A stretch of DNA of 55,790 nt. Source: Sandaracinobacter neustonicus (GTDB lineage Bacteria > Pseudomonadota > Alphaproteobacteria > Sphingomonadales > Sphingomonadaceae). The stretch is taken from NCBI RefSeq assembly GCF_006385875.1, contig NZ_VFSU01000009.1:1-55790 (forward strand), written 5' to 3'. The position numbers and the translations under genes are program-made. Shown in pieces: positions 20,456 through 55,790 of the stretch. Under the pieces are notes generated by a model that worked only from the letters and a program-made list of their open reading frames with translations, was not told the DNA's origin and did no database searches. Positions within the stretch are counted from its first letter, which is position 1. The number at the start of each line of letters is the position of its first letter.

Positions 20456-20560
20456 ACCCGCTCAGGCTGAGCTTGTCGAAGCCCCGGACGGGAAAAGAGC
20501 GAAGGCTGAGCCGGGCTGGGCATGCCCGATGGGGCTTCGACAAGCTCAGCCTGAGCGGGG
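20456..20560. repeat. Long inverted repeat (CTCAGCCTGAGCGG element), copy A
   Basis: A 30-base arm (20456-20485) and its exact or near-exact reverse complement (20531-20560) flank a 45-base spacer. The arm core is GCTTCGACAAGCTCAGCC. A partial third unit is at 20433-20449. The same arrangement with similar outer flanks (ATCGCTTGCCTGTCTCTG versus ATCGCTTACCTGTTCTTTG) occurs at 49437-49540. It may form a cruciform or strong RNA hairpin between the DEAD-box gene and accC. Confidence 0.85.
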
Positions 20561-46307: not shown

Positions 46308-46829
46308 CGAACGTTTTCGAAGGGGCTCTGCCCCTTCACCCCGGCAGGGGCGTGACGCCCCTGCACCCCCGACGTTTTTTGTGTAGCCCCTCCCCTGCAG
46401 GGGAGGGGTTGGGGTGGGGGCCATCCGCTTGGCGCGAGGTTAGAGTTTATGGCCTGCGGCGCTTTGGGGTCTGTCCCACCCACCTCTCCCCACGTCACCC
46501 CGGGCTTGATCCGGGGTGACGGTTCGGGGTGTGGGGAGGGTGGCGGGTATGTTCAGGGGCCTTCGACAGGCTCAGGCTGAGCGGGTGGGGAGGTTGGGAG
46601 CGGGTGCGGAGGTTAGTGGATCAGTCCCGGCGTTGCTCCCCTCTCTCCACCTATCTCCCCAGAGGGGAGAGAGAGCCTGTTGCGCCGCAGGCAATCGAAT
46701 CTGATCACACACACACAACGCTGCAGGTGGAGCACAACGCCAACTTCGGGGGTGCAGGGGAATGATTCCCCTGCCGGGTGCAGGGCAGAGCCCTGCCCGC
46801 CGGAGGCAAGAACCCCTAACCGCCCCGGC
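46308..46829. repeat. Intergenic mosaic repeat module 4
   Basis: A 522-base gap between convergent genes. It contains GGCGTGACGCC, the CCCCTCCCCTGCAGGGGAGG block with flank GGCCATCCGCTTGGCGCG (46387-46440), a collapsed single-palindrome form of the TTGATCCGGGG arms (46494-46520), a GGCTCAGGCTGAGCGGG unit (about 46558-46590), a CTCCCCAGAGGGGAG palindrome, GCCGCAGGCAATCGAATCTG, then AATGATT and GGGCAGAGCCCTGCCCGCC palindromes. Same blocks as modules 1-3. Confidence 0.85.
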
Positions 46830-48482
46830 TCAAACCCAGAGCTTCAGCCGCACCCAGCGCACAGCGGGGCGGACAATCTGCCAGCCTAGTGGTGCCCAGC
46901 CGCCGGTGACGGAGCCGCTGCCGGACATACCCGCGCGCAGACCATCGGTATCACTGGCGTCGATGGTGACGAGGGTGCGGAAGATGTTGCGGCCTTCCAC
47001 CACTTCCGAGAGCGGGTAGACGCGCGAGACGGTTCCGCTGAGGCGGGAGAGCGGGCGGGAGGCGAGGCGCATGGAGACGGCAGCACCCGGTTGCACCCGG
47101 CCGACGTCGCTGTCGCCCACCAGCAGTTCGGCGCGATAGCCGCCCGGCGCGGCGATGCTGAACAGCGTGTCGCCCCGGCCCATGGTCGCGCCCACGCGCC
47201 GCCGCAGGTCTTCGCCGTTCACGGTGCCGGCGATGGGGGCGCGGACGATGGTTTCGCCCAGCCGCGTTTCCAGGAGCGCGACTTGCCCGGCGAGTTGCGC
47301 GGCCTTTAGCTGCGCCAGCCGTTCGGCTTCCACATCGCCGTCTGCGCGGGCGGCGGCGGCCTGCGTGCTGGCGGCTTGCAGGGCGGCGGTGGCTTCGTCG
47401 CGGTCGCGCTCGATCTGCGTGGAATCGAAGCGCACCAGCACCGCGCCCGCCTGCACCTGATCGCCCGGATCTGCGGCGACTTCGTCGATGCGCGCGGTGA
47501 TCGGGGCGGTCACCACCCGGCGTTGCAGCGGCTCGATGGTCAGTGGTGCGCGAACCCGGTCTGGCAGGGGCAGCAGCAGGGCGAGCAGCAGCAGCGCGGC
47601 CAGCCCGCGCCGGGCGAGCGGGGCGCGGCGCTCGACGGGCACGGAGGCAGGCCATGGCGCGGTGGCGACCAGCTTGTCGAAGCGGGTGGAGAGTGTCGGC
47701 CGATAGAGGCGCGCCACGGCGACGGGCGCAGCGCGGCGGGCGAAGGCAGCGGCGGCGGCCCCGTCTCCGGGCGGCCATGTCAGCACCACGAGGCCGTCGC
47801 CTTCGGGCGAGAGGCTGGCGCTGCTGTGCAGGGCCGCACCATCGGCCAGCCGTTCGAGGCCGGTGAAGGCGGAGCTCGGTGCGGCGGAGACACCATCGGC
47901 CACTTCGCCGGCTGCGAGTTCCAGTGCCCGGCGCGATTCGGCGGAGAGTTGTGCGGTCTGGCTGTCGGCCACCCGCACCACGCGCAGCCGCCGCAGCGTG
48001 GCGAAGGCGAGGCGCGGCGCACCGGCCAGTGCGGCGGCGCGCACGGCCAGCTGATGCAGGGCGGCGTCTGTCCAGTCGGCGGCGGCGACATCCAGCAGCA
48101 GCGCCTCCATCGCCGGGTTCTGCCCGGCGGCGTGCGCGGCGGCGATGGCACGGATCAGTTCCAGCCGCTCGCGCGCCAGCGCCTGCGCCAGCGGCGTGTC
48201 CTGCGCCAGCCGGTGCACGGCGACGGGAATTCCGGCGTCATCCGGCCCCAGCACGCCCGCCGCGCCGCGCCCTTCCACCGCCACGCCGTCACGCGCGGCG
48301 GCGCGGGCCAGCGCCATCACCGGGGGTTCCAGCGTCTCGGGCAGCACGTCGCCATCTGCCGTTACACGGGCGATGGCGAAGGCTTCGCTGTTTAGCAACT
48401 GGGACTGGAACTCGGCGAGGTCGCGCAGCCGGTCCGGCCCGGCGGTGGCGAGCGCGTCGAGCGCCTGACGCAGGCGGCTCAT
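46830..48482 (-). CDS. HlyD-like membrane fusion protein with GAF-like N-terminus
   Basis: A 550-aa protein. The first ~285 residues are a soluble Ala/Arg-rich domain with a GAF-like look (LAGAPRLAFATLRRLRVVRVADSQTAQ). A single membrane segment follows (GLAALLLLALLLPLP), then the HlyD-type adaptor: beta-barrel/lipoyl pieces (RVVTAPITARIDEVAADPGDQVQAGAVLVRFD), a coiled-coil Glu/Ala/Gln region, and the barrel EDLRRRVGATMGRGDTLFSIA. It lies last in a five-gene minus-strand group with an M50 protein and another adaptor. There is no ABC ATPase or outer-membrane channel nearby. It overlaps the next gene by four bases. Confidence 0.82.
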   Translation of the reverse strand: MSRLRQALDALATAGPDRLRDLAEFQSQLLNSEAFAIARVTADGDVLPETLEPPVMALARAAARDGVAVEGRGAAGVLGPDDAGIPVAVHRLAQDTPLAQALARERLELIRAIAAAHAAGQNPAMEALLLDVAAADWTDAALHQLAVRAAALAGAPRLAFATLRRLRVVRVADSQTAQLSAESRRALELAAGEVADGVSAAPSSAFTGLERLADGAALHSSASLSPEGDGLVVLTWPPGDGAAAAAFARRAAPVAVARLYRPTLSTRFDKLVATAPWPASVPVERRAPLARRGLAALLLLALLLPLPDRVRAPLTIEPLQRRVVTAPITARIDEVAADPGDQVQAGAVLVRFDSTQIERDRDEATAALQAASTQAAAARADGDVEAERLAQLKAAQLAGQVALLETRLGETIVRAPIAGTVNGEDLRRRVGATMGRGDTLFSIAAPGGYRAELLVGDSDVGRVQPGAAVSMRLASRPLSRLSGTVSRVYPLSEVVEGRNIFRTLVTIDASDTDGLRAGMSGSGSVTGGWAPLGWQIVRPAVRWVRLKLWV

Positions 48483-49330
48483 TTCGCCAGCGGCTTCAGG
48501 ATCACGCTTCCCTGCAGGCCGGACGGCAGCGCCTCCCCGGTGTTTTGCAGGCGGAACACCGCGCGCACCTGCCCGCCGTCGATCACCGGATCGATGTAGA
48601 TCAGCGTCGCCGGAAGGGTGCGGCTGAAGGGCGCGGCGAACACCACCGGATAGGTCGCCCCCTGCTTCAGGCCGGAATAGCGCGCCACCGGCACGAAGGT
48701 TTCGCCGCGCAGGGTGGACATGTTCACCACCGTCGCCAGCACGTCGGATTTGCGGACGGACATGCCCGGCCGCGCGCCGATCCGCGTCACCCGGCCATCG
48801 AACGGCGCGCGGGCGACGTAATTTTCAAGCATCACCTTTTCCAGAGAGAGCCGCTGCCCCTCCACCGATTGCCGATCCTGCGCGGCGCGGCTTTCCAGCC
48901 CGGCCTGCTCGGCGGCGGCGCGGGCCTGCCGCAGCTCCCAATCGGTGGCGGCACCCTTGGCGCTGGCCTTCTGCGTACCCTCCAGCCGGGCCTGCGCTTC
49001 CTGCCGCCGCACCTCGGCGGCGCGCGCATCGGCGCTGGACCCGGCCGCCTTCGCCGCCAGAGACACCCGCGCCCGCTGCTCGCGATCATCCAGTTGCACC
49101 AGCACCGCGCCCTTGCGCACGGGGCTGCCTTCTGTCGCGCCCACGGAGACGACGCGGCCATCGGTGGCGGCACGCAGCGCGACCATCTGTTCGGCCATGA
49201 AGATGGCAACGGCGCGCGGCTCCGCCGCCGGGCGCGCCACCGGTTTCGCGGCAGGTTTCGCAGCCGGGGCCTGCGCAGCAGCGGCCCCCGCGACGGCGAG
49301 CAACGGCAAAAGGGCAGGAAACAGACGCAT
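48479..49330 (-). CDS. Secreted HlyD-like periplasmic adaptor
   Basis: A 283-aa protein with a signal peptide (RLFPALLPLLAVAGAAAAQA), without a lipobox. The lipoyl half-motifs (MVALRAATDGRVVSVGATEGSPVRKGAVLVQLDD and NYVARAPFDGRVTRIGARPGMSVRKSDVL) flank a coiled-coil hairpin (about 95-165), and a beta-barrel follows. It resembles RND-type adaptors but stands next to an M50 protein rather than a pump. Start: ATG at 49328-49330. It is separated from the M50 gene by the 49437-49540 repeat and overlaps the next gene by four bases. Confidence 0.82.
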   Translation of the reverse strand: MRLFPALLPLLAVAGAAAAQAPAAKPAAKPVARPAAEPRAVAIFMAEQMVALRAATDGRVVSVGATEGSPVRKGAVLVQLDDREQRARVSLAAKAAGSSADARAAEVRRQEAQARLEGTQKASAKGAATDWELRQARAAAEQAGLESRAAQDRQSVEGQRLSLEKVMLENYVARAPFDGRVTRIGARPGMSVRKSDVLATVVNMSTLRGETFVPVARYSGLKQGATYPVVFAAPFSRTLPATLIYIDPVIDGGQVRAVFRLQNTGEALPSGLQGSVILKPLAK

Positions 49331-49436
49331 GGCGGTTCTTCTATGCGATTGCGAAATGGGGGCAATCCCTTGGCGATTGTATTCTTTGGAAATAAGCATC
49401 GCTTACCTGTTCTTTGTTCCGCTCCGGCCAATATCG

Positions 49437-49540
49437 CCCCGCTCAGGCTGAGCTTGTCGAAGCCCCTGACGTGAAAGCACTATGGCCGGGCCGGGGTGGG
49501 CAAGCTCCATGGGCTTCGACAAGCTCAGCCTGAGCGGGGG
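49437..49540. repeat. Long inverted repeat (CTCAGCCTGAGCGG element), copy B
   Basis: Left arm 49437-49466 and right arm 49511-49540 repeat the arrangement at 20456-20560, with similar spacer content (GGCCGGG, GGGCAAGC-type). It lies inside the sigma/M50/adaptor group, between the M50 gene and the adaptor, so it could act as a processing or attenuation site for the transcript. Confidence 0.85.
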
Positions 49541-49607
49541 AGAGGAGCGGCGGCTAAGGCCGACGGGCTTGTAAAGACTGTGATCGCCAATCCTTTTCAA
49601 AGCGGTT

Positions 49608-51674
49608 TCAACGTTCAGACTGCGGGTCCAGCAGCCGCATCGCGGCGGTTGCCGCCTGCCACGCCAGCGGCCGTGCCGGGGCGCCCAGCCGCAGCTCCAC
49701 CCGCTGCCCCTGCCTGAGCGCGGGCGCGCCCGGCTCCGGCACCAGCCACACTTCCACCATTGGCACGGTGGTGCGCCGCCGCGCCGGATCGGTCGGGTCC
49801 ACCGTGAACGGGCCGCCCGCGGGCTTGCCCAGCGCTTCAGAGGGGAGCTTCTGCGTCGCATCGTCGGCAACTGCCATAATACGGGCGCGAAAGCGCAGAT
49901 CGGGCCGCCCGGCCACGCGGGCCTGCGCCAGCGCGCGACCCTGCGCGAAACTGGCCCGCACCCGGTCCGCATCGCCTTCGCTTACCAGCGCGTGCAGCCG
50001 CCAGTCGTTGCTCGGGATGATGATGGCCAGCGGCTGGCGCGGGTTCGGGGCCACCCAGCTTCCGGCATAATCCCCGGCGTTCAGCGGGTCCCAGCCCGGC
50101 TCGGCGGGCACTTGCAGCATCGCTTCCTCGCCGGCGAGCGCGGCGGCGGTCGCCTGCAATCCGGCGGCGGCTTCGGCGGCGGCCTGCGCGCCTTCGCCGC
50201 CCAGATCGGCGGATTGCCGCCAGCGCGCCATGGCCTCCGCACCGCGAATCGTGGCCAGCCGCTGTGCGTCCGCCAGTTCGGGCGACTCCAGCTCCAGTGC
50301 CATCCCCTCGCCCGCGCCCGCAGGGGCCACCGCCGCCACTCGCACGTCGCGCGGGGGGTAGATGAAGCGCGCGCCGCGCGCCTCCGCCACGCCCGTGGCC
50401 GGAACCCCGGCGGGCAGCGGCAGCAGGAACAGAAAGGCCAGCACAGCGCCCGCGAACAGCAGCATCCGCCGCTTCACCAGCGCAGGCTCGGCCGCCATCG
50501 CCAGCATCCGCCGCCCCGTCCCCAGCGCGGGCCGCACCACCAGCAGGGACAAGGCCACCGCCAGCATCAGCAGCGCCGCCCAAGGCGACAGCTTGTGCGC
50601 CAGCCACACCAGCCCGGCGAACACCAGCAGCCGGTAAGACAGCATCCCCAGCCAATAGGCGATCAGCCATGGGTCCGGCCGGGGCAGCTCTGCCGCCGGG
50701 CGAACCCGGAACAGCCGGGCGGGCACCACCATCGCGGCGGCCGACGCACGCTGCATCAGGTTCGGCCGCTCCAGCAGGTCAGACGCGACATAATAGCCGT
50801 CCATCCGCCCGAACGGGTTCAGGTTGAACAGCAAGGTCGTCACGGCAGCCACCGTCGCCACCTGAATGGCGGCGCTCCGCAGCAGCGGATCGTCGCTCGC
50901 CGCCCACAGCAGCACGGCGAAAATGGCGATCCAGCTTTCCACATACATGCCCGCCACGCCCACCACGGCGCGCCGCCACTTGGACCTGAGCCGCCAGGCG
51001 CTCGTCACGTTGGTGAAGGGGAAGGGCATGATCAGCATCACCGCAATCCCGGCGCGGATGGATTGCACCGGCAGCCCCTCGGCCGCGGCCATGCGCCACA
51101 GCGCGGTGGCATGGCCCAGTTCGTGCAGCCCCTTCAGCGCGAGGAACAGGATGTAGAGCAGCACGGCCGCGCGGGCATCGAACTGGTTCACCCACGCCAT
51201 CACGTCGGATCGGCCATCGTCCGCCACGAACAACAGCAGCGCCGTGATCGCCAGCACCGCCCACAGCAGGGCGACGGCGGGGCGGAACATCCAGCCCATC
51301 AGCCGGTTCGCCAGCGGCATCCACGGCCCCAGCTCCAGCAATTCGCGGCGCAGGAACAGCGCTTTGCCTTCGATAGGCCCCACAGGCGCAGCAACCCCCG
51401 CCTCCAATCCCGGCGCAGACACCAGCCCGGCGGCAATTAACTGCCGCAGCAGCGCCTCGCCCTCAGCCGGGGGCAGTCGCAATTCCGCCAGCGCTACGGG
51501 CAGCGGCCGCACGCCATCCAGCCGCCCCAGCAGCGCATAGGCCTTGGGCGAAACGGCCAGATGCCGCCCCGCCGTCACATCAGAGACGATATAGCGCGGC
51601 GAATCCCGGAACAGCGTGCGAACCGCCGCCAATCCGGGCCGACGCGTAAACAAGACAGGCGATTGATTGGCCAT
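49608..51674 (-). CDS. M50 site-2-protease-type membrane protein with PqqD-like N-terminus and adaptor-like C-terminus
   Basis: A 688-aa polytopic inner-membrane protein. Residues about 20-85 look like a PqqD/peptide-binding winged domain (VSDVTAGRHLAVSPKAYALLGRL). The zinc site is HELGH at 184-188 in a membrane helix and the matching NPFGRMDG at 286-293. Several membrane helices follow to about 440, then a soluble region with lipoyl/adaptor-like pieces, a coiled segment (Ala/Glu-rich, about 520-560) and a barrel end. This architecture recalls the YydH-type peptide zinc metalloproteases. It follows the sigma and anti-sigma genes. The ATG at 51672-51674 was chosen; an upstream TTG frame is unlikely. 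Confidence 0.85.
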   Translation of the reverse strand: MANQSPVLFTRRPGLAAVRTLFRDSPRYIVSDVTAGRHLAVSPKAYALLGRLDGVRPLPVALAELRLPPAEGEALLRQLIAAGLVSAPGLEAGVAAPVGPIEGKALFLRRELLELGPWMPLANRLMGWMFRPAVALLWAVLAITALLLFVADDGRSDVMAWVNQFDARAAVLLYILFLALKGLHELGHATALWRMAAAEGLPVQSIRAGIAVMLIMPFPFTNVTSAWRLRSKWRRAVVGVAGMYVESWIAIFAVLLWAASDDPLLRSAAIQVATVAAVTTLLFNLNPFGRMDGYYVASDLLERPNLMQRASAAAMVVPARLFRVRPAAELPRPDPWLIAYWLGMLSYRLLVFAGLVWLAHKLSPWAALLMLAVALSLLVVRPALGTGRRMLAMAAEPALVKRRMLLFAGAVLAFLFLLPLPAGVPATGVAEARGARFIYPPRDVRVAAVAPAGAGEGMALELESPELADAQRLATIRGAEAMARWRQSADLGGEGAQAAAEAAAGLQATAAALAGEEAMLQVPAEPGWDPLNAGDYAGSWVAPNPRQPLAIIIPSNDWRLHALVSEGDADRVRASFAQGRALAQARVAGRPDLRFRARIMAVADDATQKLPSEALGKPAGGPFTVDPTDPARRRTTVPMVEVWLVPEPGAPALRQGQRVELRLGAPARPLAWQAATAAMRLLDPQSER

Positions 51675-51737
51675 CCGGCAGTTCCGACCCCTGTCGCTCC
51701 TAACCTGAAAAGGGCCGCGCTGCAATCAGCCCTGATC

Positions 51738-52580
51738 CTAGAATCTGGGCCTTGGCCCCTGTGCGGCGGGCGGCTGGGGACGGGCGGGTACCGGAGGCGA
51801 CCCGGAATGGGAGGCGATGGCTGCGGCAGGGGCTTCGACGGACGTGGCCGGCGGCGCAGCCGACCCTCCGGCCGCTGCCAGCGCGGTCGGCGCGGGCGGG
51901 CCATAGGCTTCGGCGGGAAGCTTGCTGTCCTGTCTGGGCGCGGGAGGTCCGAATTGTGCCAGCTTATTTTCGGACGCGAGCGGATCGACCGGCGAGACAG
52001 CGGGGGCTTCGTCCTGCGCGAGCCGAACCTCTGGCAGAGCTGCGGGCGACTGCGGAACGGCAGAGGGCCCGTTTGCCTTCAAATCGGCCGCCTTCAAATC
52101 GATCGGCGCGCGGGCAGGCTTCGCGTTCGCCGACTCTGCCGGGAAGGAAGGCCGCATCTGTTGCGCGGGCGCGTTGGCGAGTCGGACCGGCGCGGCTGCC
52201 GGTTCCGCGGCAGGAAGCGCGGGCGTGCCTGCCAGCGTGACGGAGGGGGTGGCGCCGGAATCCTGCCCCGGGCGCGCCATGAGGAGGCTGATGGAGACAA
52301 GGCCAATGGAGAGAAGCACGACAGCTGCGGCCGAGGCGGCAGCATAGCTGCGCCAGCTATCGGCCCGACGCCCCCGCGTCACGGATGCCGGGTCTACGGC
52401 GCCGGGCGCGGCAACAAGCAGCTTCGGCGCGGCACCGACATCGGCGGCGGCCAGCTGTGCCGTCGCCGTCGCGCGGGCAGTAATCCGCGCGGCCATCCCG
52501 TCTGGCAACGGGGGCTCGGGCAGCTTCGACAACGCGTGCGCGACGCGTTCGTCTTTCTGGTTGTCCGTCGCTTCGTTCAT
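51738..52580 (-). CDS. One-pass, Pro/Ala-rich anti-sigma-like protein
   Basis: A 280-aa protein. The short cytosolic part (about 1-75) has no Cys and no HxxxCxxC zinc motif; one membrane segment (about 77-101, AAAVVLLSIGLVSISLLMA) follows; the rest is a long Pro/Ala-rich periplasmic tail. Its ATG overlaps the ECF sigma stop (ATGA), the classical arrangement for an anti-sigma factor. Family domain not recognised, so the function is inferred from position and topology. A site-2-type protease gene lies next downstream, which could suggest regulated proteolysis. Confidence 0.75.
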   Translation of the reverse strand: MNEATDNQKDERVAHALSKLPEPPLPDGMAARITARATATAQLAAADVGAAPKLLVAAPGAVDPASVTRGRRADSWRSYAAASAAAVVLLSIGLVSISLLMARPGQDSGATPSVTLAGTPALPAAEPAAAPVRLANAPAQQMRPSFPAESANAKPARAPIDLKAADLKANGPSAVPQSPAALPEVRLAQDEAPAVSPVDPLASENKLAQFGPPAPRQDSKLPAEAYGPPAPTALAAAGGSAAPPATSVEAPAAAIASHSGSPPVPARPQPPAAQGPRPRF

Positions 52581-53233
52581 GCCAGCAGTTTCAGATCCTC
52601 GGGCGCTATGCCCATGCGTTCCAACTCTTCCCGCAGGCTTCGCCGTGCCCGGAAGAGCAGCGATTCCATCGCCTTCAGGTTCAGGCCCAGCATTTCCCCC
52701 GCGAGCAGGTTCGAAACGCCTTCAAGATAGCATAGCACAAGCGCGGCGCGATGCCGATGCGGAAGCGCACACAGCGCCTGATCGATCACCTCCTCCAGCC
52801 GTTGCATCGCCAGTTGCCGTTCGGGGCCGGGCGATTCGTCCGCTATCTCAGGGAGTGGTCCGTCGGGCACCACGCGAAAGCGGCGCAGCCGATCAAGGCA
52901 GAGGTTGATCGTCACCTGCTGCAGCCAGGTCAGCAGCCCGCCGCCGCGGCTTTCCCAGCGGGGCGCATTCTGCCACAGCCGGGTGAAACATTCCTGCACG
53001 GCATCCTCAGCTTCCTGCGCGTCGGTCAGCAGGCGATAGGCTACGCGATACATGCGGGGGCTGTGGCGATCGACCAGCCGCCCGAAGGCGCAGACATCGC
53101 CGATGCCGGCCCTTCGCATCAGCGCGTCATCCGTATCCGCCGCCCGCAGCGCCGCTTCGGCATTGCGGCCGGCATCAGCGAATGCCGGGACATCTTCAAG
53201 CTGTGAAAGGGACTGCTGAGGGGGCACCGGCAA
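52577..53233 (-). CDS. ECF-type RNA polymerase sigma factor
   Basis: A 218-aa ECF sigma. Region 2 is FGRLVDRHSPRMYRVAYRLL then EAEDAVQECFTRLW; region 4 is LPHRHRAALVLCYLEGVSNLLAGEMLGLNLKAMESLLFRARRSL. About 40 residues precede region 2. The frame starts at TTG (53231-53233), with no ATG nearby; an internal ATG at residue 39 is possible. It is divergent from the secreted beta-solenoid gene and heads the anti-sigma / M50 / adaptor group, so it likely controls one or both. Confidence 0.9.
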   Translation of the reverse strand: MPVPPQQSLSQLEDVPAFADAGRNAEAALRAADTDDALMRRAGIGDVCAFGRLVDRHSPRMYRVAYRLLTDAQEAEDAVQECFTRLWQNAPRWESRGGGLLTWLQQVTINLCLDRLRRFRVVPDGPLPEIADESPGPERQLAMQRLEEVIDQALCALPHRHRAALVLCYLEGVSNLLAGEMLGLNLKAMESLLFRARRSLREELERMGIAPEDLKLLA

Positions 53234-53448
53234 CCACTGTTCCGCGGGACGTTCAGGCTTTCGGCTAGGGGTTGCGCAATGAACCCCGGATGTATCCGGA
53301 AAAAATCCCGGTCGCGCGCGAAGGGTCTGCGCACCGGCAACGTTTATCGTTGGATGACCAACCGTTGCCCGAGGCTCTCCACAGTTTCTGTCGCCGGAAT
53401 GCCGGTGCGGGCGTTGGCGTCCCCTTTCTTCAATCGAGGACGTTAGAA

Positions 53449-54960
53449 ATGAAATTGAGCACCCTGCTGGGCTCGCCCTGCATCGTCACACTCGCCGTTG
53501 CAGCGGCACCGGCGCTGGCTGACACCACTATCAGCAAGGACAGCACCACCCCCCTCGATACATTGAGCGCCGGGAATATCCTGATCAAGAAGGACGCGGA
53601 GCTGAGCGTTGCGACCGGCGCGGCCATCACCGTGAACAGCAGCAACACGGTGACGGTCGAAGACGACGACAGCGACGACAGCGACGATGAGCCGGGCCAG
53701 ATCACCGCAGGAAAGGCGGACGGCGCCACGGGCGTCCTGATTCAGCCCGGCGTCACGACGACCATCACCAACGGCGGCACCATCTCGGTGCTGGAAGAGT
53801 TTGTGCCGTTGGACGAGGACGGCAATTCGATCGCCGACGGGCCGATTGCCTCCGCGAAAAATCGCTATGGAATCCATGTGGCGTCGGGCGACAGCGTTAC
53901 CGGCTCCATCACCAACACCGGCACGATCACCCTGGAAGGCCTGAATTCCGCCGGGATCGCGGTGGATTCGACACTCGTCGGCTCTTTGACCAACAGTGGA
54001 TCGATCCGGGTGGTGGGCGACAACAGCTACGGCATCCGCACCTCGGATGTTACAGGCAACATCGTGCTGGAGGGCAGTATCGTCGTCACCGGCGCTGGCG
54101 CGCGAGCGGTGAGCATCGAGGGGGATGTCGGCGGCAGTATCCGCATCCAGGGCACCGTCGCGCACCAGACATCCTTTGTTTATGACGACGACGGCAACAC
54201 AATCTACCTGTCCCGCTACGACCTGCGCCTCGGTGCCCCGGCCGTCTCGGTGGCGGGCAATGTCGCGGGTGGGATCGTCGTGGCGGTGCCGCCCGACGAC
54301 AACAGCAGCACGGATGATGACGAGGACGACGACGGCGTCGTCGACAGCAGCGAGGGCAGCGGCACCGTCATCGCCTATGGCAACGGCCCCGGCATGCTGA
54401 TCGCCAGCGACAAGGATATCGTGATCGGCACGCTGCCCACCGCGAACGGCGGCTACTCGCTGCTGGTGGAGGGCGGTGTTTCGGGCACCGCCACCTATAG
54501 CCGTACAGACGCGTACGGCATTGTGATCGGCGGTGCCGAAGGCACCGTCAGCCTGCCCGGCGGCATCGGGGTAACCGGAGCGGTGCAGGCCACGACGCAG
54601 GATGCGAAAGCCACGGCCCTGCTCATCAACGAAGGGGTAACCGTTTCCTCCCTCTACAACAGTGGCACGATCATGGCGGCCATCAGCTCGCAGGGGGAGG
54701 GCGAGGCCTATGCCATCCAGGATCTTTCCGGGACCCTCACCAAGATTGAAAACACCGGTTTCATCACTGCCAGCGGATCGAGCACGGATATCGTCTATGC
54801 TCTGGATCTTTCCCGGACTACAGCCGACGTTGTCATCGACCAGTATATGAACGCGGAGGACATCGAGACGAGCGAGGATATCGAGGAGGATCTCGACGAA
54901 GGCGAAACGGACGACACGGTCTACACCCTTTCAATTACCCACAAGTGGTCGCGAGCGTGA
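53449..54960 (+). CDS. Secreted beta-solenoid (autotransporter-passenger-like) protein, C-terminally truncated by IS
   Basis: 503 aa as read. Signal peptide KLSTLLGSPCIVTLAVAAAPALA, then a right-handed beta-solenoid-like passenger with repeated turns of the form GSITNTGTITLEGLNSAGIAV, GSLTNSGSIRVVGDNSYGI, and so on. Asp-rich insertions occur at about 64-80 (EDDDSDDSDDEPG) and about 284-300 (DDNSSTDDDEDDDG), with more Glu/Asp near the end. The coding frame enters IS sequence at 54928 (residue 494), so the last ten residues LSITHKWSRA are foreign and no beta-barrel is left. GAGGA lies 8 bases before the ATG. Confidence 0.8.
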   Translation: MKLSTLLGSPCIVTLAVAAAPALADTTISKDSTTPLDTLSAGNILIKKDAELSVATGAAITVNSSNTVTVEDDDSDDSDDEPGQITAGKADGATGVLIQPGVTTTITNGGTISVLEEFVPLDEDGNSIADGPIASAKNRYGIHVASGDSVTGSITNTGTITLEGLNSAGIAVDSTLVGSLTNSGSIRVVGDNSYGIRTSDVTGNIVLEGSIVVTGAGARAVSIEGDVGGSIRIQGTVAHQTSFVYDDDGNTIYLSRYDLRLGAPAVSVAGNVAGGIVVAVPPDDNSSTDDDEDDDGVVDSSEGSGTVIAYGNGPGMLIASDKDIVIGTLPTANGGYSLLVEGGVSGTATYSRTDAYGIVIGGAEGTVSLPGGIGVTGAVQATTQDAKATALLINEGVTVSSLYNSGTIMAAISSQGEGEAYAIQDLSGTLTKIENTGFITASGSSTDIVYALDLSRTTADVVIDQYMNAEDIETSEDIEEDLDEGETDDTVYTLSITHKWSRA

Positions 54961-55790
54961 TTCCGTTGGCCGCATGAGCATTGCCCGTCTGGAATCAAGC
55001 ATGATTCATTCCCTGGCACCTGAATCGGTTGGCGGGGTGCAACGTGGAGACGTCCGTTTTCGATGCGGCAGGATGGGCTGACGGGGAAGTCGATCCCGCC
55101 GCCTTTCGTGATAAGCGACTGGGCGAACGGCTTCGAACGATGCTTAAGCAGATGGCAGGAGCGATTGGCGCACCGATACCGATGGCGTGTCAAGACTGGG
55201 CCAATACAAAGGCGGCCTACCGTTTTTTGTCTAATGGCTCGGTGAACGAGGGAGACATACTTGCCGGGCATTTTCAGGCGACACGGACACGCGCGGCGGC
55301 GCTTGAGGGGTTCATCCTGGTTTTACAGGACACCACCGAATTCTCCTATCAAAGGCGCAATCCTGAAACGATTGGCGCCATCGGGCTTGCGCCGAGCCGG
55401 CGTGATGAGAATGGTCGGCTTCGGCTTCATACGGTCTGCGGCCTGCTCATGCACTCCAGCCTTGCGATCACGACTGAGGGATTGCCACTGGGTCTGACAG
55501 CGGCGAAATTCTGGACCCGCACCAAGTTCAAGGGCGCCAACGCGTTGAAGCGGCGGATCAATCCCACGCGCGTGCCGATCGAGGAGAAGGAGAGCTACCG
55601 CTGGCTCGAGAATATGCGTCAATCGACCACCCTGCTAGGCGATCCGGAGCGACTGGTTCACATTGGCGATCGAGAGAACGACATTTACGAGTTCTTCTGC
55701 GAAACACAGGCGCTCGGCACGCATTTCTTGGTCCGCACCTGTGTCGATCGTCTGGCTGGCGACGGTGGCCATACGATCGCCGACGAAATG
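54928..55790 (+). mobile_element. IS4-family (Tn5/IS50-like) insertion sequence, left part
   Basis: Bases 54928-54946, CTTTCAATTACCCACAAGT, match the IS50 outside end CTGACTCTTATACACAAGT at 13 of 19 positions by eye and are followed after about 100 bases by a Tn5-like transposase. The right end and target duplication lie outside the window. The insertion interrupts the beta-solenoid gene. Confidence 0.65.
55044..55790 (+). CDS. IS4-family transposase (Tn5-like), incomplete at window end
   Basis: 249 codons are visible and the frame is open to the last base. From the GTG at 55044 the N-terminal DNA-binding part reads DKRLGERLRTMLKQMAGAIGAPIPMACQDWANTKAAYRFL, typical of the Tn5/IS50 branch. 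Asp96 in VLQDTTEF fits the first catalytic Asp and Asp209 in HIGDRENDIYEFF the second; the Glu would follow outside. It catalyses cut-and-paste transposition. No in-frame ATG gives the conserved N-terminus, so GTG is the likely start. Confidence 0.88.
   Translation, partial: METSVFDAAGWADGEVDPAAFRDKRLGERLRTMLKQMAGAIGAPIPMACQDWANTKAAYRFLSNGSVNEGDILAGHFQATRTRAAALEGFILVLQDTTEFSYQRRNPETIGAIGLAPSRRDENGRLRLHTVCGLLMHSSLAITTEGLPLGLTAAKFWTRTKFKGANALKRRINPTRVPIEEKESYRWLENMRQSTTLLGDPERLVHIGDRENDIYEFFCETQALGTHFLVRTCVDRLAGDGGHTIADEM

Follow-up and report, generated by a model that had tools for sequence, protein, structure and literature searches.

An M50 protease-adaptor triplet linked to LExR-tagged giant surface proteins in Sandaracinobacter neustonicus and other Pseudomonadota

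The contig of Sandaracinobacter neustonicus analyzed here (C9 of a 3.65 Mb genome in 34 contigs; the whole contig, 55,790 bases, is referred to as the window) encodes a minus-strand triplet composed of an M50 intramembrane metalloprotease fused to an adaptor, a small exported periplasmic adaptor, and an N-extended HlyD adaptor. The triplet is a conserved unit (46830-51725; Table 1), and the linkage between M50 gene clusters of this kind and genes for giant proteins carrying a short N-terminal tag of the LExR form is strong. We consider it probable, at about 0.7, that LExR-tagged giant surface proteins are exported, and probably also processed, by a system whose inner-membrane and periplasmic part is the triplet.

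The M50-adaptor triplet and its relatives

The M50 protein contains both HExxH and NPxxxxDG, the pair of motifs that identifies M50 (site-2-protease-like) intramembrane metallopeptidases and that an earlier note on this DNA had recognized, together with six hydrophobic segments in a simple hydropathy scan. Seven residues (H186, E187, G189, H190, N286, P289 and D294, in A3 numbering) are invariant in all nine rows of alignment A3, and all nine members match Pfam M50 at E<=0.1 (best 1.6e-7), with the window protein below the curated cut-off. The adaptor-like C-terminus, also proposed earlier, is recognizable in the family, where HlyD_3 matches eight of the nine members (best 2.1e-13). With the RND_mfp (resistance-nodulation-division membrane fusion protein) model TIGR01730, which has a cut-off of 94.9, the small adaptor reaches 96.3 bits. 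The HlyD adaptor has one hydrophobic segment (residues 288-306) preceded by an N-terminal part of ~290 residues; a relative in Alisedimentitalea has a GAF domain in this part (1.3e-14), and Pfam gives no GAF match in the window protein. The two adaptor genes overlap by 4 bases, and 208 bases separate the M50 and small-adaptor genes. In this gap (49437-49539) lies a 32-base inverted repeat (97%) whose 26-base core occurs in two identical copies at 20458-20558 and once, with three mismatches, at 46559; it is a dispersed palindromic element.

Among 59 genomes, the window genome included, close homologues of the M50 protein are present only in congeners G003 (68% identity) and G001 (49%), with two distant ones at 29-30%. 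Both congeners keep the M50, small-adaptor and HlyD-adaptor genes, and neither has the sigma, anti-sigma or solenoid gene of the window alongside. The G001 genes form a single run of TolC, giant, M50, adaptor and adaptor, in which the giant is a frame of 4,082 residues with DUF11-type repeats and TolC matches Pfam OEP at 9.1e-15. Contig C28 of the window genome encodes a 3,595-residue DUF11-repeat giant that is 52% identical to the G001 giant over its first ~900 residues, and the TolC gene just upstream specifies a product 51% identical over 570 residues to that of G001. The earlier statement that the cluster lacks both an ATP-binding cassette (ABC) ATPase and TolC thus stands for the ATPase, but as regards TolC it holds only for C9. 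The G003 counterpart of this giant begins on contig C17 and is interrupted by the contig end, while C14 starts with a matching C-terminal piece that faces the triplet; the two are likely parts of one gene that the assembly has separated. At the C-terminus the G001 and G003 giants are alike (33% identity in ~240 columns), and the G001 giant narrowly misses the LEPR-XLL model NF012209 (15.5 bits, cut-off 17). Six genomes from the genus were compared: three contain the giant together with the M50 gene, and three lack both at E<=0.001, one of the latter being only 81% complete.

A search of 396 Pseudomonadota genomes with profile A3, built from nine M50-adaptor proteins, identified the fusion in 78 at E<=1e-146, with 77 full-length and one cut at a contig end; a partial match in genome G392 is not counted among them. 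Neighborhoods were compared for 60 of the 106 M50 matches at E<=1e-136, from 50 genomes, picked by score and contig room rather than randomly, and 19 of them were extended. The HlyD adaptor is encoded in 56 of these loci, the small adaptor in 54, and both in 53; a SecA-like gene is present in eight, although one of these matches (L119) is weak at 53 bits. The proposal that the M50 protein and two adaptors form one unit tied to large surface-type proteins is upheld.

Pumps of the familiar kinds were not seen within the clusters in which they were sought. Searches by phmmer with two ABC queries find ABC-like frames in six of the 60 regions, none inside the span of TolC, adaptor and M50 genes; five are more than 1 kb away and the sixth (L082) lies 108 bases past the cluster on the other strand. 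This negative concerns the clusters, and an ABC gene may be present elsewhere in a genome. No resistance-nodulation-division (RND) pump is present in the window operon or annotated near M50 in 12 plasmid neighborhoods (from incomplete PLSDB tables), the 60 loci not having been scanned with an RND model. The idea that a pump is hidden in large flanking frames was also pursued and rejected: the six frames scanned are a DUF2126 amidoligase, an iron-sulphur protein, a type I restriction subunit, two giants, and one (L085) with no family, and the amidoligase and iron-sulphur protein account for two frames of ~1,100 residues near adaptors.

These arrangements bear on whether the giants are exported conventionally, by housekeeping Sec and another outer-membrane path or by an ABC-dependent type I system encoded elsewhere, with the M50 cluster only processing, anchoring or releasing them. 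We think this unlikely. Adaptors and TolC are channel-forming families, not processing complexes, and in G711, G746, G721 and G737 the giant, TolC, two adaptor and M50 frames abut or overlap, leaving no space for a transporter gene. In its favor are the conserved zinc site and the lack of any ATPase inside the class A clusters, and a precedent is the cleavage of the adhesin LapA by LapG, described in PMC9430717.

Plasmids carry the same clusters. Twelve neighborhoods were examined from the 40 records listed of 71 matching ones, and those of Kosakonia, Azospirillum, Burkholderia, Thalassospira, Niveispirillum, Eleftheria and Variovorax encode a giant, TolC, small adaptor, HlyD adaptor and M50-adaptor. 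The giants are annotated as LEPR-XLL in Thalassospira and Pseudosulfitobacter and as DUF4347 in Azospirillum, Burkholderia and Niveispirillum; the Kosakonia cargo contains a DUF4347 domain, and the Variovorax cluster adjoins a 'tandem-95' gene of 48.7 kb. Phyllobacterium has a separate type I secretion pair at a distance of 3.3 kb from M50. A weaker M50 relative occurs in 17 Escherichia and eight Citrobacter plasmid records.

The N-terminal tag of the giants

Giants encoded next to M50 genes have a short motif near the N-terminus, typically ALEPRxMFDGA. From 5,036 frames that have a real 5' end and 100 residues or more, a strict pattern for this tag picks out 37, one in each of 37 of the 60 loci. 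Short frames that match run off the fetched region, except for a closed 316-residue frame in L100. Five variant tags recognized by eye (LEQRIAFDA in L081 and L082; LEPR/IEPRxLLSAD in L119, L134 and L138) raise the count to 42. Because the L, E, R and D/E positions were written into the pattern, part of their conservation in alignments A5 and A6 follows from the search itself, which made no demand on the proline, FDG or alanines.

The tag is near-exclusive to genomes with the M50-adaptor. Profile A6 (42 columns), built from the N-termini of giants beside M50 genes, at E<=0.005 matches 69 of the 78 M50-positive and none of the 318 M50-negative genomes (Fisher 1e-67). After removal of the 30 M50-positive genomes that supplied seeds, the counts are 39/48 and 0/318. 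Relaxing the threshold to E<=0.05 yields 70/78 and 13/318; of the 13 looser matches, all but one fall in frames 17-891 residues long, the exception being that of G392, with its partial M50 match. The C28 giant of the window genome has the tag LLEERIMLDA and matches the profile at 4.2e-9, as one of its seeds. The largest tagged frames have 14,920 residues (E 7e-5) and 19,427 residues (E 0.017). In each of seven genomes the tag is matched between five and seven times, often on contigs lacking a listed M50 match, and one machine therefore probably serves several cargo genes.

Giants that did not contribute to the profile have similar tags: LEPRFMFDA in Azospirillum, LEPRVVYDA in Burkholderia, LEARLMFDA in Eleftheria, IEPRILLSAD in Thalassospira, and LEPRLLLAAD in Alisedimentitalea, where it lies just upstream of the annotated start. 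Those of Niveispirillum, Variovorax, Methylosinus and Pseudosulfitobacter were left out of this reading. All five sphingomonad giants with a visible start are tagged (four LEPRMMFDG, one LEDRVLLSAD); two more sphingomonad giants begin outside the stretch in view, and at one locus no giant is visible. The feature common to the cargo across the family is N-terminal. One tagged giant (L084:15496-19902) joins DUF4347 to six PATR repeats, which are typical of autotransporter passengers.

The near-exclusive co-occurrence argues against the M50-adaptor set being a maturation and export system resembling those of ribosomally synthesized and post-translationally modified peptides (RiPPs), with the giants as bystanders, as does the finding that the tag class tracks the M50 branch (see below). 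The M50 part does resemble the daptide (NF041824) and YydH/LiaK (NF058609) proteases, and PqqD is a leader-peptide chaperone, mentioned as a peptide chaperone in PMC8939145. The window protein scores 88.4 and 16.7 bits against these two models and misses both curated cut-offs (300 and 225), and we regard this explanation as very improbable, although no systematic search for small precursor genes was made.

A tree of 84 M50 rows, made by a quick method with the Shimodaira-Hasegawa-like approximate likelihood ratio test as its only support, contains a 62-row class with MFDG-type tags (support 100), a 19-row class (support 99) with SecA in 15 of its 19 rows and mostly the variant tag LEPRxLLSAD, and a third branch on a long stem formed by the window, G003 and G001. 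Over 55 labelled rows, with L126 (a mixed form) and rows with unread tags left out, the tag class changes once; SecA presence changes four times. Among nine SecA loci with a readable tag, seven are of the LEPRx(L/M)LS type, joined by Alisedimentitalea (LEPRLLLAAD) and L126 (LEPRVLLDG). L043 and L188 have an LLS/LFS-type tag without SecA, and a further SecA locus, that of G600, has LEDRVLLSAD. The congruence of tag and M50 branch fits a machine that reads the tag, but shared descent alone could also yield it.

The dedicated SecA of Alisedimentitalea matches SecA_DEAD (8.6e-91) and the preprotein-binding domain (3.9e-26), and the SecA-class clusters usually have a longer HlyD adaptor (with the GAF domain in Alisedimentitalea) and sometimes DUF3467. 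Genes annotated as 'prepilin peptidase' in Methylosinus (L227:19733-21649) and Pseudosulfitobacter (L229:20993-23017) are SecA-like (phmmer 3e-164 and 2e-174). A search of 396 Sphingomonadales genomes at E<=1e-30, with two candidates scored in each, recovers the window's close M50 branch only in its own genome; eight other members of the M50 family there, at 29-32% identity, have the TolC-type gene set (six) or the SecA type (two).

Sigma, anti-sigma and solenoid genes in the window

The coordinates of the triplet and the genes next to it are shown in Table 1.

Table 1. Features of the triplet region in the window.
Feature	Positions	Strand	Basis
HlyD adaptor, N-extended	46830..48482	-	HlyD_D23 7.8e-17
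Small exported periplasmic adaptor, RND_mfp type	48479..49399	-	HlyD_3 4.4e-17
M50 intramembrane-metalloprotease/adaptor fusion, core of the system	49608..51725	-	Zinc site and family HlyD-like C-terminus; N-terminal ~100 residues PqqD-like (weak)
NPFGRMDG motif, residues 303-310	50796..50819	-	Sequence motif
HELGH zinc motif, residues 201-205	51111..51125	-	Sequence motif
Anti-sigma candidate	51738..52580	-	One hydrophobic segment (84-102)
Extracytoplasmic function (ECF) sigma factor	52577..53233	-	NCBIfam NF004113, 211.7 bits, cut-off 208
Solenoid/autotransporter-like surface protein gene, 5' part, 493 residues	53449..54927	+	Cut by an insertion sequence (IS); Met and signal-like start at 53449
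IS4-family element, left part; contig end falls inside	54928..55790	+	IS match

The five minus-strand genes of the earlier note (sigma, one-pass anti-sigma, M50 and two adaptors) are real as listed, by domain matches and hydropathy, although the anti-sigma candidate has no match in Pfam or NCBIfam. The sigma and anti-sigma genes overlap by 4 bases and 12 bases lie between anti-sigma and M50. The divergent exported solenoid gene has its signal-like start but is truncated by the IS4-family element, which supplies the last 11 codons of the frame, stop included. The far side of the insertion was sought with one exact pattern and not found.

The earlier note interpreted these genes as acting on the divergent solenoid protein under ECF control, and the gene order in the window, with closely spaced sigma, anti-sigma and M50 genes, favors this. 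Among the 60 related loci, though, sigma is present in one, and anti-sigma and solenoid in none. The anti-sigma protein has no match in 29 relatives, only the window genome matching among the 30 tested, and the solenoid protein has none in five congeners. In the neighborhood survey that the note had itself put forward as a test, the link to the adaptors is thus kept and those to sigma and solenoid are lost. As a conserved association this explanation, including both ECF control and the handling of the solenoid protein by the M50 protein and adaptors, is largely refuted, and we find it scarcely credible; local regulation by sigma is possible. The sigma and anti-sigma genes are probably local additions outside the conserved system, and the pair may regulate the window copy.

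Two candidates were rejected on these grounds: the solenoid protein as conserved cargo, given its absence from congeners and loci and its IS-broken gene; and the ECF sigma factor as part of the system. An autotransporter reading of the solenoid protein found no backing on C9, where the gene is cut at 54928 and no PF03797 barrel is matched, though such barrels are present elsewhere in the genome. At least 12 places in the window genome (G000) match the IS4-family element, with copies in the window and on contigs C2, C16, C17, C18, C21, C24, C29, C30, C34 and C4; many contigs begin or finish inside this multi-copy element, which breaks the assembly. Nine-base target duplications, read by eye, pair the flanks of four other copies. 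On C2 an autotransporter barrel fragment (49452-50141; a 456-residue frame that matches the profile from position 1 to 226 of 255) has another copy of this IS ~500 bases away, and may belong to a second surface-protein gene that the IS disrupted.

A proposed route of export

The giants could reach the surface in four steps. The tag LLEERIMLDA of the C28 giant would be bound by a PqqD-like N-terminal domain of the M50 protein, a suggestion based on the action of PqqD as a leader-peptide chaperone. The chain would then cross the inner membrane, most likely via the Sec channel, given that the clusters of one branch include a dedicated SecA gene next to M50. The M50 active site may cut in or near the tag. 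Finally, the M50 adaptor domain would act with the small and the N-extended HlyD adaptors to make the connection to TolC, as the adaptor/TolC architecture suggests, and the giant would exit to the cell surface. As a guess, the N-terminal part of the HlyD adaptor (GAF in one relative) gates export. That this amounts to a distinct pathway, in which the LExR tag is read by the M50 protease-adaptor and the chain passes from a Sec-type translocase (SecA-driven in one branch) through the adaptors into TolC, is to us an even bet; by eye, the tag region is unlike an ordinary signal peptide.

Gene linkage, co-occurrence, the tag, its branch-matched variants and a conserved protease site are observed facts; recognition of the tag, cleavage and transport are inferences. 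Several observations weigh against an export role for the triplet. In the window genome triplet and giant are unlinked, on C9 and C28 respectively, and only 30 of the 60 loci have a TolC gene alongside. Eighteen of the 60 loci have no visible tagged giant: in three the start of the giant is out of view and 15 have none, several of these stopping at contig ends and three having M50 without adaptors, one of which (L106) has a 1,539-residue frame without a tag, a tally that leaves aside shadow frames, whether antisense or overlapping. Nine of the 78 M50-positive genomes lack a tag match at E<=0.005. The neighbors in Phyllobacterium (1,413 residues) and Magnetospirillum (ELWxxDGT, 492 residues) are untagged, and may not be cargo. 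The tag profile is not M50-independent, and scoring two candidates per genome undercounts M50 copies. The window M50 protein alone falls below threshold for HlyD_3 (0.01), and the PqqD-like N-terminus proposed earlier is detected by Pfam in two of the nine family members (best 9.6e-4) with no match in the window protein. The structure prediction of the M50 protein that had been suggested was run, but the model (predicted local distance difference test score 42.8), built on two sequences, was too poor and is not used.

M50-adaptor genes without a nearby adaptor, TolC or tagged giant occur at L102, L106 and L140, in genomes (G135, G143 and G103) that have a second M50-adaptor match; they are possibly separate processing enzymes.

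The system resembles type I secretion (HlyB/HlyD/TolC) in its HlyD-type adaptors, its TolC partner and the large repeat-rich surface or secreted proteins encoded nearby. It differs in having the M50-adaptor fusion in the inner-membrane place, three adaptor-type proteins and an N-terminal cargo feature, with no ABC transporter inside the examined clusters, and the window HlyD adaptor scores 48.3 bits against type_I_hlyD (cut-off 208.65). RND tripartite efflux likewise has an RND_mfp-type adaptor and a TolC partner, but here the linked cargo is a protein and no RND pump was annotated or found alongside where looked for. The RiPP M50 proteases share the M50 region, and the PqqD-like part suggests leader recognition; here there is also a C-terminal adaptor domain and the cargo has thousands of residues. 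In the BapP cluster, too, an adaptor gene adjoins that of a large surface adhesin with Ig-like character, but the cluster also encodes two ABC transporters and a LolD-like ATPase, and 'M50' does not occur in the available part of the text (PMC12153261).

The LEPR-XLL/LEPR-8K (NF012209) and DUF4347 giants that form the cargo are known as sequence motifs, LEPR-XLL being the NCBI name of the cargo motif, and the tag is widened here to LExRx(M/L)FDG/A and LExRIMLDA forms. A LEPR-XLL protein of ~8,000 residues is mentioned for Vibrio (PMC10868602), and a DUF4347 protein that rises in stationary phase is listed for Burkholderia thailandensis (PMC12322963). No paper linking these motifs to M50-adaptor machinery, and no prior description of the machinery, was found in the open literature searched; subscription journals and preprints were outside its coverage, and an earlier account is possible.

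If correct, the proposal would add a TolC route that operates without an ABC, RND or major facilitator superfamily (MFS) pump in about a fifth of the sampled Pseudomonadota genomes (78/396), with several cargo genes per genome served by one machine, and would apply leader-peptide recognition to very large proteins. How chains of several thousand residues are delivered to the surface is an open question for many of the DUF4347, LEPR-XLL, DUF11 and tandem-95 giant families. If the link holds, these would share a common machine and a defined tag, and culturable strains, Azospirillum brasilense Sp7 among them, would allow a direct test.

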